Assembly: GCA_018701395.1 (NCBI GenBank)
Contig: JABIWU010000025.1
Span: 1-41,322, forward strand
Origin: Phycisphaerae bacterium
Lineage (GTDB): Bacteria > Planctomycetota > Phycisphaerae > Phycisphaerales > SM1A02
DNA length: 41,322 bases
Direction of reading: 5' to 3'
Positions 1,639-29,881 of this stretch are shown here, in pieces. The notes beneath the pieces are model-generated. The model searched no databases. It worked only from the letters and a program-made list of their open reading frames with translations, and was not told the DNA's origin. Position numbers and translations under genes: made by a program. Every line of letters starts with the position of its first letter. Positions within the stretch are counted from its first letter, which is position 1.

Positions 1639-3762
1639 TTAGTCACTCTCTGAAAACGTTGTTTTAAACCGTTTTTTCAATGCTCTTGTTCCACGCTCAT
1701 CACCGATAATTGTAAGTTGGTCGCCGTCTTCAAGTATTGTGCTACCGCGTGGGACAACCATATGACCTCTACGGTGGATCAGTGCAACAAGGCAACCTTC
1801 TGGGAACCCAAGTTTGTGAATTGGCAAATCAATTAAATGTTCCGTTGGCGTGCCAATTTCAAGGTGCAATGATGCGAATCTATCTTCACGCAATAAAATT
1901 TCTTTCATCTCTTGATTTGTATTTGCAGTTAGCCAGCGAGGCATAAATCCTTGTTGGTCAACATGCCCAGCAAGTTGCGCGAGTAATCTTAAGTGCTGCG
2001 ATGGGTCAGATTCAGGGCTGACTAAGAAAAAGATGGCATGAATGGCTTGTTCTGCGTGGTTGCCTCCAAATACATCGCCAACATTAATTGTAATTCCATC
2101 ACGACTTCTTGCGATAATCATGATGGGTTGTTCAATATCTGGAACTCGCAAGTGAGGGAGAGCAACTCCGCCTGTTACAGGGGTTGCGCCAACTCGAGTT
2201 CCTTCTAAGAAACCATCTGCAAGAGCAGTTGCGGTGGTTGGTAGTAAAGAAGCAAGTTCTTCAGATGCTACGGTAACAATGTCTTCGAACGATGCGCCGG
2301 TCGGTGCATCGATGACTCTTGATTTTGCCACGATTTCATCGAAGGGGTCGTGAGCTCGTAGTCCTTTTTCTTTGAGGATTCCACGCAGTTCTGCATCAAG
2401 GGCAACAAATCGTTTTCGTCCAAGTCTTTCAAAGATGTGGTAAATCGCACCGTATCTATCGACACGTTTTCTTGCGTAGACGAAGTACCAGATAATTCCT
2501 ACGCCGACTATGCCAGCAGAAAATAGTGTGGGCAACCAGCCCATCAAGCCAATAATTGTAATGCAAGCCAGAGTGCCAATTATTTGCAACCAAGGATAGA
2601 ACGGGGCACGAAATCCTGGGTCATACGAATCTAGTTTTGCTTCTCGCATCACAATTACCGAAATGCAAAGAAGTGCAAACATGAGTAGTTGAAATGCACT
2701 CGCTAACTTCGCAATTTTGAGGGGGTCTAAAAACAAAATGACAAGAACAATAAAACTTGCAGAAATAATAATTCCAATAATCGGTGTTCCTTTTCCATCC
2801 ACTTTTCGAAGCGCAGGAGGAAGCAAGTGGTCTCGACTCATTGCAAGCGGATATCTTGAAGCACTAAGGATTCCTGCATTGGCAACAGAGAGAAAAGCAA
2901 AGATTGCTGCAATTGCCATAATGAAACCCCCAGTTGAAGAACCAGTAATTTCAGATGCAACAGATGAAACTGGTGTCATATTGATTTTGCCGTCAGCATA
3001 TATGAGACCTTCCGTTCCACTAACTCCGATCATGACGATGAGACCAATAATATAAACAGTGATGGCTGTTCCAATCGCAAGAAATAACCCAAGAGGCAGG
3101 TTCCGTTCTGGATTTTTAATTTCACCCGCAACGCTAATTACTTTTGTAACGCCGACATAACTAATAAACACAAGACCCGCTGCTGAGAGAATATTTTCTG
3201 ACCCCTTGCCGAAGAAATTTGAGAAGTTGGCAGGTTTAATTTCTAAACTTCCAGCGGTGAGAAACCAACTTAGAAGTGCAAGTAACATCACAACGAGCAC
3301 GATTTGGAACGAAGTTGTTTTCTTTGCTCCTAAAATATTCAACCCACTAAAAAAGACAACAAGTCCCAGTGCAATCAGGGTGTAAACCGATTCATGTGTT
3401 TCTGCGGGTAGAAATAATTGTATGTACGCACTCATCCCAACAAGTGCGAAGGCGGTTTTTAAAAGTAGCGCAAGCCAAATGCCTAACCCGCCTATTGTTC
3501 CAACCATTGGGCCCAGACTTCGATCTAGAAAATAATATGCCCCACCAGACCGCGGCATCGCGGTGGCGAGTTCAATTTTACTTAGCATTGGCGGTATTAA
3601 TAGTAACCCTGCAATAAGGTAGGCAAGGACTACCGCAGGCCCTGCAATTTCCGTTGCGAAACTTGGCAAAAGAAAAAAACCACTACTCAACGTTGCGCCG
3701 GTTGCCAGAGCAAACACGCCAAACAATCCAAGATGTTTCTTTGTGGGTGAGTGTATTGCCAT
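1639..3762 (-). CDS. APC-family amino acid permease fused to PTS EIIA-like and TrkA-C domains
   Basis: Predicted inner-membrane transporter of 707 residues. Residues about 10-430 form an APC-superfamily permease with about 12 hydrophobic segments; it begins with GVFALATGATLSSGFFLLP and has the early SGGAYYFLDRSLGP motif. Residues about 490-625 resemble a PTS EIIA (fructose/nitrogen type) domain and keep the phosphoacceptor-type His in GGVALPHLRVP (His537). Residues about 635-700 match a TrkA-C regulatory domain (EGCLVALIHRRGHMVVPRG...). Family knowledge: EIIA and TrkA-C modules on permeases act as regulatory inputs, by phosphorylation and by nucleotide or ligand binding. The substrate is probably an amino acid or amine but cannot be read from sequence. 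It lies 64 nt downstream of fumC on the same strand and is probably its last operon partner. Confidence 0.9.
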   Translation of the reverse strand: MAIHSPTKKHLGLFGVFALATGATLSSGFFLLPSFATEIAGPAVVLAYLIAGLLLIPPMLSKIELATAMPRSGGAYYFLDRSLGPMVGTIGGLGIWLALLLKTAFALVGMSAYIQLFLPAETHESVYTLIALGLVVFFSGLNILGAKKTTSFQIVLVVMLLALLSWFLTAGSLEIKPANFSNFFGKGSENILSAAGLVFISYVGVTKVISVAGEIKNPERNLPLGLFLAIGTAITVYIIGLIVMIGVSGTEGLIYADGKINMTPVSSVASEITGSSTGGFIMAIAAIFAFLSVANAGILSASRYPLAMSRDHLLPPALRKVDGKGTPIIGIIISASFIVLVILFLDPLKIAKLASAFQLLMFALLCISVIVMREAKLDSYDPGFRAPFYPWLQIIGTLACITIIGLMGWLPTLFSAGIVGVGIIWYFVYARKRVDRYGAIYHIFERLGRKRFVALDAELRGILKEKGLRAHDPFDEIVAKSRVIDAPTGASFEDIVTVASEELASLLPTTATALADGFLEGTRVGATPVTGGVALPHLRVPDIEQPIMIIARSRDGITINVGDVFGGNHAEQAIHAIFFLVSPESDPSQHLRLLAQLAGHVDQQGFMPRWLTANTNQEMKEILLREDRFASLHLEIGTPTEHLIDLPIHKLGFPEGCLVALIHRRGHMVVPRGSTILEDGDQLTIIGDERGTRALKKRFKTTFSESD

Positions 3763-27225: not shown

Positions 27226-27328
27226 GTGTGACGAATGTCGTCGAGCCCAAGAAACACTAAGAGCAAAGTGGGTCGGCCCGTGGGCGGTCCCTTGTGTTTT
27301 CTTCTGTTACTTGGGCTCAAGAACACAC
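27226..27328 (+). ncRNA. Candidate structured non-coding RNA between alr and mqnA
   Basis: The 325-nt gap holds no gene-like frame but shows nested pairing. GTGTG (27226-27230) pairs with CACAC (27324-27328). GAGCCCAAG (27243-27251) pairs with CTTGGGCTC (27310-27318). AAACAC (27252-27257) pairs with GTGTTT (27294-27299) across a 10-nt one-sided bulge. A G/C-rich inner hairpin lies around 27270-27291. A purine run (27208-27226) precedes it. The local G+C is much higher than the surroundings. The long bulged-rod shape recalls regulatory RNAs such as 6S, but no family signature is recognised. It could equally be an mqnA leader. The strand is assumed from mqnA. Confidence 0.4.
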
Positions 27329-27454
27329 ATCTGTCTAGCACCTCTATCGGCAACTCTTTCTAGTTTAGTCAGTAAGGATTGAAAAAAAATTAATACGACC
27401 GATAACGACCTGTTTTTATGTGTTTTCTTTGCTTACGCACCCTATGATGCACAA

Positions 27455-28282
27455 ATGCAGCAAGTGAAACAAGAAATTCTAAGACTCGGAGTGGTAAATT
27501 TTCTTAATGCAACACCATTAATAGATGGAATTGAAACAACTCAAGGAATTAATCTCATTCAAAAAGTTCCAAGCGAACTTGTCGGATGCCTTGAAAGGGA
27601 CGAAGTCGATTTTGCGCTTGCGTCTTCTATTGATTATCAAAAAAGCAATAAAGATTTCGCTATTCTACCAGTGGGAGCGCTTAGCAGTGATGGCGAAACA
27701 TTAACAGTACGCCTTTGCAGTCGAATTCCTTTTGAAAAAATCGCAGAAGTGTATTGCGACATTGATAGCCACACCTCAATTGCTTTATTGCAAATTGTTT
27801 TGTATAAAACTTATGGCATCAGACCAAAGATAATTTCTTGCGATGTAAAATCACTTGATAACAACAATTTAAAATGGCCAGATACGGTTTTATTGATAGG
27901 CGATAAAGTCGTAACAAGTTCTGCGGAAACGAAATATCCATTTCAATTAGATTTAGGCGAAGCATGGTCTTCACAAACTGGCTTGCCATTTGTATTTGCA
28001 ATGTGGTTTGGAAATGCCAGTCTTTCAAATGACTTAGTTAACAGGGCTTTTATCATTTTAGATAGGCAAAGACGGTGCAATGCAACGAGTTTGGAACAAG
28101 TTGTTTCAGAAAATGCACAAAGCAGGGGATGGGATGTCGAATTAGCATTTCGGTATGTAACTGAGCATATTCAATATGCATTTACTGAATCTCACAAGAA
28201 GTCACTAGATTTATTCTATGAACTTTCCATGTCGCTTGGAATTATAGATGAGGTAGCACCACTTCGTTTTCATATTATTTGA
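27455..28282 (+). CDS. mqnA: Chorismate dehydratase of the futalosine menaquinone pathway
   Basis: 275 residues. MqnA dehydrates chorismate to 3-[(1-carboxyvinyl)oxy]benzoate, the first committed step of futalosine-type menaquinone synthesis. Family landmarks: LRLGVVNFLNATPL at the start, VPSELVGCLERDEVDFALASSIDY, SDGETLTVRL, and LDLGEAWSSQTGLPFVFAMW, all in a periplasmic-binding-protein-like fold. No other mqn genes are nearby. The next gene begins 3 nt after the stop, so the two are probably co-transcribed. The pathway implies anaerobic or microaerobic respiration using menaquinone. Confidence 0.93.
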   Translation: MQQVKQEILRLGVVNFLNATPLIDGIETTQGINLIQKVPSELVGCLERDEVDFALASSIDYQKSNKDFAILPVGALSSDGETLTVRLCSRIPFEKIAEVYCDIDSHTSIALLQIVLYKTYGIRPKIISCDVKSLDNNNLKWPDTVLLIGDKVVTSSAETKYPFQLDLGEAWSSQTGLPFVFAMWFGNASLSNDLVNRAFIILDRQRRCNATSLEQVVSENAQSRGWDVELAFRYVTEHIQYAFTESHKKSLDLFYELSMSLGIIDEVAPLRFHII

Positions 28283-28285
28283 CGT

Positions 28286-29812
28286 ATGCCTATTGCACCA
28301 GAATTTCATCTTGAAGAGATGCGCGCACTTGCGATGCAAATGAGACGTTCGCCAGAGAAGATTCGGTTAAAACAAATTAAAGCAGTGGAAGATGTGTTGC
28401 AGGAAATAGAAGGCAACACTTTGTATCCATTAGATTACATTGTTTTTCGAATTACCAAATTCCGTAGCGATAATGTAGACCAACCAATGTTGTTTGGTCA
28501 TGCTTTACTTGGTGATTTAGTTTCTCTCATTGCTATTGTTACGTGGACGTTGCAATTGCCATCAGACGGCATGTTGACAGTAAAAGAAGCAGCAAGTTTT
28601 TTGAGTGTGTCGCCTCGGACAGTAAGTCGACTTCGAAGAGAAGGGCTAGTTTTCTATTGGGTTGTTGAGAATGGGAAAAAACGACTGGGATGTACTGAAA
28701 AAATGCTTTCCAGATTTCAAAACCAGAGCAGGAAGCGTCTTGAGTCTGCTTCACGGTTTTCAAGGTTGACCCGAAATGAAAAACAACAAATTATTATTGC
28801 TTCAATGCACTACACTGGCAGTGGCAGATCATTAAATGATGTTGCTTCTGAGTTGGCAAAAAAAACTGGACGTGGTCATGAAACGATTCGATCATTGTTG
28901 CAATCTGTTAACCAAACAAGCCAATCTTTAAATACAAAAAAACCGTTGTCAAAACAAGATGCAAAAGTGGTTGAACGAGAACGCAGTTGCGGCATTCCCT
29001 GGAATGTATTAGCAAAACGATTCAACAAGTCAGTTGGTTCATTGCAAAAATCGGTTGTTCGATTGCGAGCAACACGTTTGAAGCAACTCGATATTTTATA
29101 TATCAAACTTGATGTGTTTCAGAGAGATGATGCGGAAGAAGTTATATTAAGTCCGTTAGCCGTAAAGAAATTACTGCCTCCTGTTCTTTTAATTGACCCA
29201 TTGCATTTTGGTTTTGATTCTGAAATGCAAGTTCAAACGAATGAAACGGCAATGGTTTCTGCAATGCACTTGTTAAGACGTAGAGCGAAACTCAGCATAC
29301 AACAACTGCCATATTCGCCAAAAGTCGAAGTTATAGATCGCATCGAAACAGATTTGCGATGGTCCTATTTGCTGCAACAGCAGTTGGTGTTGTTTGCAAT
29401 TCAACCATGTATTGCTGTCGCAATTCAACACATTGGTCGACCATTGCATGAATTGCCGCCACTTGAAGTAATCGGAATTATTAAAGAAGTTATTTCAATT
29501 GCTAGCGACTCTTGTGTTTCGCTTGACCCTTCAAAAGGGCAATCTACAATACGAACACCTGCTGCGACACTGGATAGAACGTTGTCAAAATCAAGTACAT
29601 TAAAAGTTCAAGACCGCGCAGCAACTCGTTTGAAAATTCCATCTATTAAACTTCCCTTTAAACACCTAGTTCCATGGAGTTACTTAATCCCAGATAAGGA
29701 GCAGAGCGGAATTTTTGCAATGCACCTTGGTTGGAAGGGCTATCCGAAAACAGTAGATGAAATTTCTATTGAACTAGGAAAAAGTTCAAACTGGGTACGT
29801 AGACAAATGTAA
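28286..29812 (+). CDS. Multi-HTH protein resembling a degenerate sigma-70 factor
   Basis: 508 residues, no close family recognised. Visible parts: an excisionase/MerR-type HTH at about 96-122 (LTVKEAASFLSVSPRTVSRLRREGL); two sigma-region-4-like HTH segments at about 180-206 (SLNDVASELAKKTGRGHETIRSLL) and 221-262; a segment at about 319-435 that follows the layout of sigma-70 region 2 (ETAMVSAMHLLRRRAKL..., LDPSKGQSTIRTPAATLD where sigma factors have FDPSRGxxFSTYAxWWIRQ); and a region-4-like end, 470-508 (KEQSGIFAMHLGWKGYPKTVDEISIELGK...VRRQM), that stops within the recognition helix. Region 2 lacks the usual promoter-melting aromatics. It starts 3 nt after mqnA. It could be a specialised sigma factor, an anti- or co-regulator derived from one, or a DNA-binding regulator. 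The sigma relation is my alignment by eye. Confidence 0.55.
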   Translation: MPIAPEFHLEEMRALAMQMRRSPEKIRLKQIKAVEDVLQEIEGNTLYPLDYIVFRITKFRSDNVDQPMLFGHALLGDLVSLIAIVTWTLQLPSDGMLTVKEAASFLSVSPRTVSRLRREGLVFYWVVENGKKRLGCTEKMLSRFQNQSRKRLESASRFSRLTRNEKQQIIIASMHYTGSGRSLNDVASELAKKTGRGHETIRSLLQSVNQTSQSLNTKKPLSKQDAKVVERERSCGIPWNVLAKRFNKSVGSLQKSVVRLRATRLKQLDILYIKLDVFQRDDAEEVILSPLAVKKLLPPVLLIDPLHFGFDSEMQVQTNETAMVSAMHLLRRRAKLSIQQLPYSPKVEVIDRIETDLRWSYLLQQQLVLFAIQPCIAVAIQHIGRPLHELPPLEVIGIIKEVISIASDSCVSLDPSKGQSTIRTPAATLDRTLSKSSTLKVQDRAATRLKIPSIKLPFKHLVPWSYLIPDKEQSGIFAMHLGWKGYPKTVDEISIELGKSSNWVRRQM

Positions 29813-29828
29813 TATAGAATGGCAAAAA

Positions 29829-29864
29829 AAAACGGCTTGAACATTTTAATGTCCAAGCCGTTTT
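29829..29864. terminator. Bidirectional terminator between the sigma-like gene and rpsI
   Basis: AAAACGGCTTG (29829-29839) pairs with CAAGCCGTTTT (29854-29864), continued after one mismatch by ACAT/ATGT around a TTTA loop. It is flanked by an A-run on one side and a T-run on the other, between convergent genes. Confidence 0.9.
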
Positions 29865-29881
29865 GTTGAAAATAATAAAAC

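Follow-up and report, generated by a model that had tools for sequence, protein, structure and literature searches.

The open reading frame at positions 28286..29812 (+) of the window, by which we mean the whole 41,322-nucleotide stretch that was analysed, encodes a 508-aa protein with several HTHs and traces of sigma-70, and it raises the question of whether such a protein is an unusual sigma factor with extra DNA-reading modules or a sigma-derived regulator that no longer melts promoters. The first-pass annotation had named both readings, and from the 3-nt spacing to mqnA it had also suggested control tied to menaquinone or respiration. That spacing was correct: the stop codon of mqnA lies at 28282 and the start codon, which was set by the conserved N-terminus MPxxxRF in the orthologue alignment, at 28286. 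The co-directional mqnA gene (27455..28282, +; PF02621, E=7.9e-41) belongs to the futalosine pathway of menaquinone synthesis, and upstream of it, across a gap of 325 bp, lies what we take from the translation to be a racemase-like gene. Just past the stop codon of the ORF, direct sequence reading gave a likely intrinsic terminator (29828..29866, +), a hairpin AACGGCTTG...CAAGCCGTTTTG followed by a T-run, and the next gene, on the opposite strand, is presumably rpsI, again from the translation. A TATGAT at 27443-27448, six bases before the mqnA start codon, is conserved in most of the genus and might possibly be the -10 box of a leaderless mqnA transcript.

The protein begins with an N-terminal domain (residues 1-92; 28286..28561, +) that carries the conserved motif YPxDxVxxRITGYR in alignments and matched nothing among PDB sequences better than E 0.1. 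A distant family, f33, has a ~370-aa protein (L165:3995-5104, L166:3140-4240) that consists of this domain and the sigma regions with no HTH array, so the N-terminal domain is a separate module. The excisionase-type HTH and the two further HTHs that had been proposed were all recovered. HTH1 (residues 96-147; 28571..28726, +) is winged and excisionase/MerR-like, was above the gathering cut-off of Pfam HTH_17 when the window protein was scanned alone (E=9e-7, 29.5 bits against 27), and has helices 99-106 and 110-117 and strands 124-128 and 131-137 in the AF2 model. HTH2 (residues 163-207; 28772..28906, +) and HTH3 (residues 223-266; 28952..29083, +) each form three helices in the model; Pfam matches of relatives to HTH_23, HTH_38 and Mor run across this stretch, with HTH_38 at HTH2 in intact relatives and all three at HTH3. 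Next comes a helical bundle like sigma regions 1.2-2.4 (residues 302-441; 29189..29608, +), within which TIRTPAATLDR (residues 421-431; 29546..29578, +), read earlier as an altered melting block, does align with the region 2.3/2.4 block FSTYASWAIMK of intact relatives. The region 4-like end (residues 476-508; 29711..29809, +) stops inside the recognition helix, as had been noted: by alignment and AF2 models the last helix is 501-507 (7 residues) versus 528-549 (22 residues) in an intact relative. The short C-terminus was not caused by a frameshift, because the orthologues in G009 and G005 stop at the same place.

When the window protein alone was searched in Pfam, NCBIfam and with phmmer, the first HTH was the only significant match; Pfam gave no Sigma70_r2 match, and the sole Sigma70_r4 match sat on HTH1. 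The relation to sigma factors therefore had to come from the family. A whole-genome search with the window protein found orthologues in 79 of 81 relatives, almost always as a single copy, and a profile of 30 orthologues detected the family in 143/148 sampled genomes of the class and 36/148 of the phylum. A 93% identical orthologue is that of Phycisphaerales bacterium isolate UWMA-0053. Among the aligned members from outside the window's order (taken as Phycisphaerales from that record), Sigma70_r2 was matched in 50/50 and Sigma70_r4 in 49/50 in Pfam, whereas inside the order the numbers were 6/80 and 40/80, and some of these in-order Sigma70_r4 matches may sit on N-terminal HTHs, as in the window protein. 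Orthologues from outside the order read ...NLRLVVSIAKRH...FFELISDGNxSLMRAVEKFDYxRGxKFSTYASWAIMKNFAR... and align with SigA/RpoD in the PDB at E about 1e-55. The profile check that had been proposed was thus negative for the single window sequence but positive for the family, since a profile of 80 in-order members found sigma factors in the PDB for region 2 (i-E 2.6e-4) and region 4 (i-E 1.7e-7). It is well supported that the family is genuinely sigma-70 and that this ancestry is not due to chance. The window genome also has other sigma factors, with 12 Sigma70_r2 places including one RpoD-like protein.

The predicted structure agreed with this ancestry. An AF2 model of the window protein was built from 80 orthologues (mean pLDDT 91.8), and in VIA-align its residues 302-441 superposed on sigma-70 regions 1.2-2.4 with Z 9.2 (2.9 Å, 129 residues, 8% identity); helical bundles may give middling Z values by chance, but the sequence evidence agrees with this match. 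The match spanned sigma-70 97-447 and the best 50 matches were all sigma factors; the model of an intact relative reached Z 14-15 over sigma regions 1.2-4. Foldseek with the whole window model returned nothing at E<=0.001, but its top matches were nevertheless sigma factors. The window protein is thus predicted to have kept the region 2 helical fold of the sigma-70 family, with a 2.3/2.4 helix of 13 residues against 26 in the intact relative.

To place the loss of sigma features, members were scored with HMMs made from intact relatives, and a tree was built from the HTH half only, with the sigma part left out. In the tree the genome families formed clades, and the intact proteins fell outside them; it does not settle the basal branching order of families f5 and f6, so a single loss and several losses look alike in it. 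Outside the order the median scores were 118-129 bits for region 2 and 84-96 bits for region 4, and family f5, inside the order, still had medians of 84 and 68 bits. Region 2 fell to 7 bits (up to 25) in f6, where region 4 was lost, and to about 0-5 bits in f1-f4, which include the window, with region 4 partial. In the window's genus the scores were -1 and 1 bits for regions 2 and 4, about 110-111 bits for the N-terminal part and 74 bits for the HTH part, and the HTH half was better conserved than the sigma part.

Residues were compared by ungapped motif match, with sigma-70 numbering and residue roles as we take them to be. At the melting positions F427, T429, Y430 and W433 the window has T, R, T and A; the family consensus there, F, T, Y and W, occurred in 86-100% of proteins in f5 and 80-98% of those outside the order, against 0-6% in f1. 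At the core-binding positions of region 2.2, D403, Q406, E407, N409 and M413, the window has G, K, E, I and S, and only E407 is sigma-70-like; the N409 position is N in 96% outside the order and 0% in f1. The window protein thus has neither the -10 melting residues nor the 2.2 core-binding residues of a functional sigma-70, nor a complete region 4, and the loss of the core-binding and melting signature residues in f1-f4 is well supported. Region 2 had been called decayed, which needs correcting, as it is remodelled under purifying selection: dN/dS of residues 302-440 (Nei-Gojobori) was 0.111, 0.165, 0.179 and 0.072 in four close pairs, with the HTH half similar, although these estimates are noisy and three pairs gave 0.3 or more for single short segments. 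Values of about 0.07-0.18 in the remodelled region mean that it was repurposed and maintained and is not dead.

We therefore put a probability of about 70% on the reading that a sigma factor has been turned into a non-melting, multi-HTH DNA-binding regulator, so that of the two options first proposed, the regulator would apply to the window protein and the sigma factor with extra DNA-reading modules, judged by sequence, to the orthologues that have stayed intact, in f5 and outside the order. The remodelled region 2 could nevertheless bind a partner in a new way, which counts against this reading. One such possibility is an antagonist directed at polymerase or promoters, a sigma mimic or decoy that binds core or promoters without melting and blocks another sigma factor; a kept bundle shape together with lost melting residues is just how a dominant-negative sigma would be expected to look, but the core-binding positions have been replaced as well and nothing ties the protein to a particular partner sigma, so we consider it unlikely. 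It is also rather improbable that the protein is still a sigma factor that uses other residues of its remodelled region 2 to bind core and to melt DNA, perhaps at special promoters and with the help of the extra HTHs. The predicted survival of the 1.2-2.4 fold, the purifying selection on it and the retention of all motifs in the close relatives of f5 would fit such a protein, but f1-f4 have lost both the aromatic and Thr residues for capture of the -10 strand and the acidic and Asn residues for core binding, region 4 of the window is cut inside the recognition helix, and conservation is higher in the HTH half. A decaying pseudogene retained through its operon position, to which the truncated C-termini of some members of the genus (487 aa in G003, 473 aa in G008) might point, is largely refuted and very improbable, as dN/dS stays well below 1 in almost all segments, the remodelled one among them, 79/81 relatives have the gene and no internal stops were reported, and it persists where mqnA is absent.

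The preferred reading, a regulator derived from a sigma factor, leads to the question of what it would regulate. The link to mqnA is real and order-wide: of the 80 in-order genomes, 68 had mqnA directly upstream of the regulator gene, compared with 0 of 53 outside, and in those outside-order genomes that were checked and have a PF02621 gene, this gene was located elsewhere. The linkage includes f5 (7/7), which means that it is older than the loss of the sigma motifs. Eight in-order genomes keep the regulator although they have no PF02621 (MqnA/MqnD) gene, in three mqnA is located elsewhere and one has neither gene, though some genomes in these absence counts are incomplete (one is 79% complete) and single absences are uncertain. 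Since the regulator is kept in these eight genomes, its role extends beyond menaquinone. The proposed control of menaquinone or respiration is thus supported in part, as outside the order the linkage does not exist; control of menaquinone by the regulator is possible, but it would not be its only job. Within ±4 kb of the regulator gene outside the order, no conserved neighbours were found except antisense artefacts, so the neighbourhood does not point to a function of the intact sigma factor.

Upstream of the operon we found an unannotated structured RNA, antisense to mqnA (27234..27330, -; covariance model R1, 93.8 bits). Two-sided changes occurred in 18 of its 27 pairs and 96% of cells were paired, which was far above shuffled and slid controls, and against Rfam there was nothing at gathering score. 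It was found in 30/81 relatives, with one locus per genome and nearly always at the mqnA operon locus; it is divergent from mqnA in the window's genus and runs in the same direction in most other f1 genera. Two copies (L124:3327-3419 and 3616-3698) lie before the regulator gene in G043, where no MqnA/MqnD homologue was found. An identity as 6S RNA was rejected, as the window genome has no RF00013 match and three other genomes have weak matches at other places, and SRP RNA was also rejected, as candidate SRP RNAs, some below gathering score, lie elsewhere in 11/11 genomes tested.

Between the RNA and mqnA lies a conserved inverted site pair, TATCGG...CCGATA (27345..27404, no strand assigned), whose pattern occurs once in the whole window genome and is found at this position throughout the genus (13/13 genomes). 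The CCGATA-type pair is on the upstream side of the RNA, with a start-to-start distance of 51-55 bp in the genus and about 50-60 in several other genera, and same-orientation CCGATA pairs precede the same RNA in several other genera. There was no sign of a genome-wide regulon, as RCCGATAR was not enriched in the window genome (128 matches versus 174 for the reversed control). Near the RNA, CCGATA was absent from G021, whose regulator gene lies at another place, and likewise from G026, in which the gene is present. In 11 in-order genomes that lack an adjacent mqnA, the 450 nt before the regulator held no paired CCGATA, which gave no indication of autoregulation there. The pair is a good candidate for an operator, but it is tied to the sigma-derived protein by position only.

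Taken together, the ancestor would have been an alternative sigma-70 factor, widespread in the class, with the N-terminal domain and three HTHs before regions 1.2, 2 and 4. In the order's ancestor its gene probably became the second gene of the mqnA operon at a time when the protein, judged by sequence, was still a sigma factor; the residues that bind core polymerase and those that melt the -10 element would have been lost afterwards, and in the window's genus region 4 would have been cut back too. The present protein is most likely a DNA-binding regulator that recognizes its site by the winged HTH and the two further HTHs, while the remodelled sigma-2 bundle would serve for structure or for interactions, and its likely local target would be its own operon and the promoter of the divergent RNA, at the conserved CCGATA pair. 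We infer that it neither binds core nor melts promoters, that its function is regulatory and that the CCGATA pair is an operator. The fullest version of this proposal is tentative and may well fail in some part: a sigma-70 initiation factor would have become a non-sigma regulator within one order, with sister families showing the intact, intermediate and remodelled states, and in the window's family it would control the divergent structured RNA and the mqnA operon through the fixed CCGATA pair.

One orthologous gene, placed by the HTH-half tree, thus encodes an intact sigma factor outside the order and in f5, has lost part of its sigma features in f6 and has lost the sigma signatures under purifying selection in f1-f4, and because all these states exist in living orthologues, the conversion of an initiation factor into a regulator becomes directly testable by comparison. 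Sigma factors and HTH regulators are usually handled as separate classes, and automatic annotation would likely call a sigma factor only for the intact members, so the relation is easily missed; a search of the open-access literature found no paper on such a sigma-derived regulator. The best NCBIfam match of one intact orthologue, through its sigma domains, was MzaA (NF041931), the sigma factor of the MZA anti-phage system, but membership was rejected: the 147-bit score falls short of the cut-off of 800, there was no sign of an MZA context, and the window protein had no match to it in NCBIfam. The protein resembles excisionase/MerR-type HTH_17 regulators (PF12728) in HTH1 with its beta wing, which scores above the gathering cut-off, but in contrast to them it carries this HTH together with two others on a scaffold derived from a sigma factor, and it has no phage context. 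With group 1/2 sigma-70 factors (RpoD/SigA/RpoS; PF04542, PF04545) the family shares regions 1.2, 2 and 4 and their sequential arrangement, a homology made clear by the intact orthologues, and a predicted bundle that superposes in the window protein. Unlike these factors, the family has the N-terminal domain and three HTHs in place of region 1.1 and no recognisable region 3, and the window's lineage has its core-binding and -10 residues replaced and region 4 truncated.
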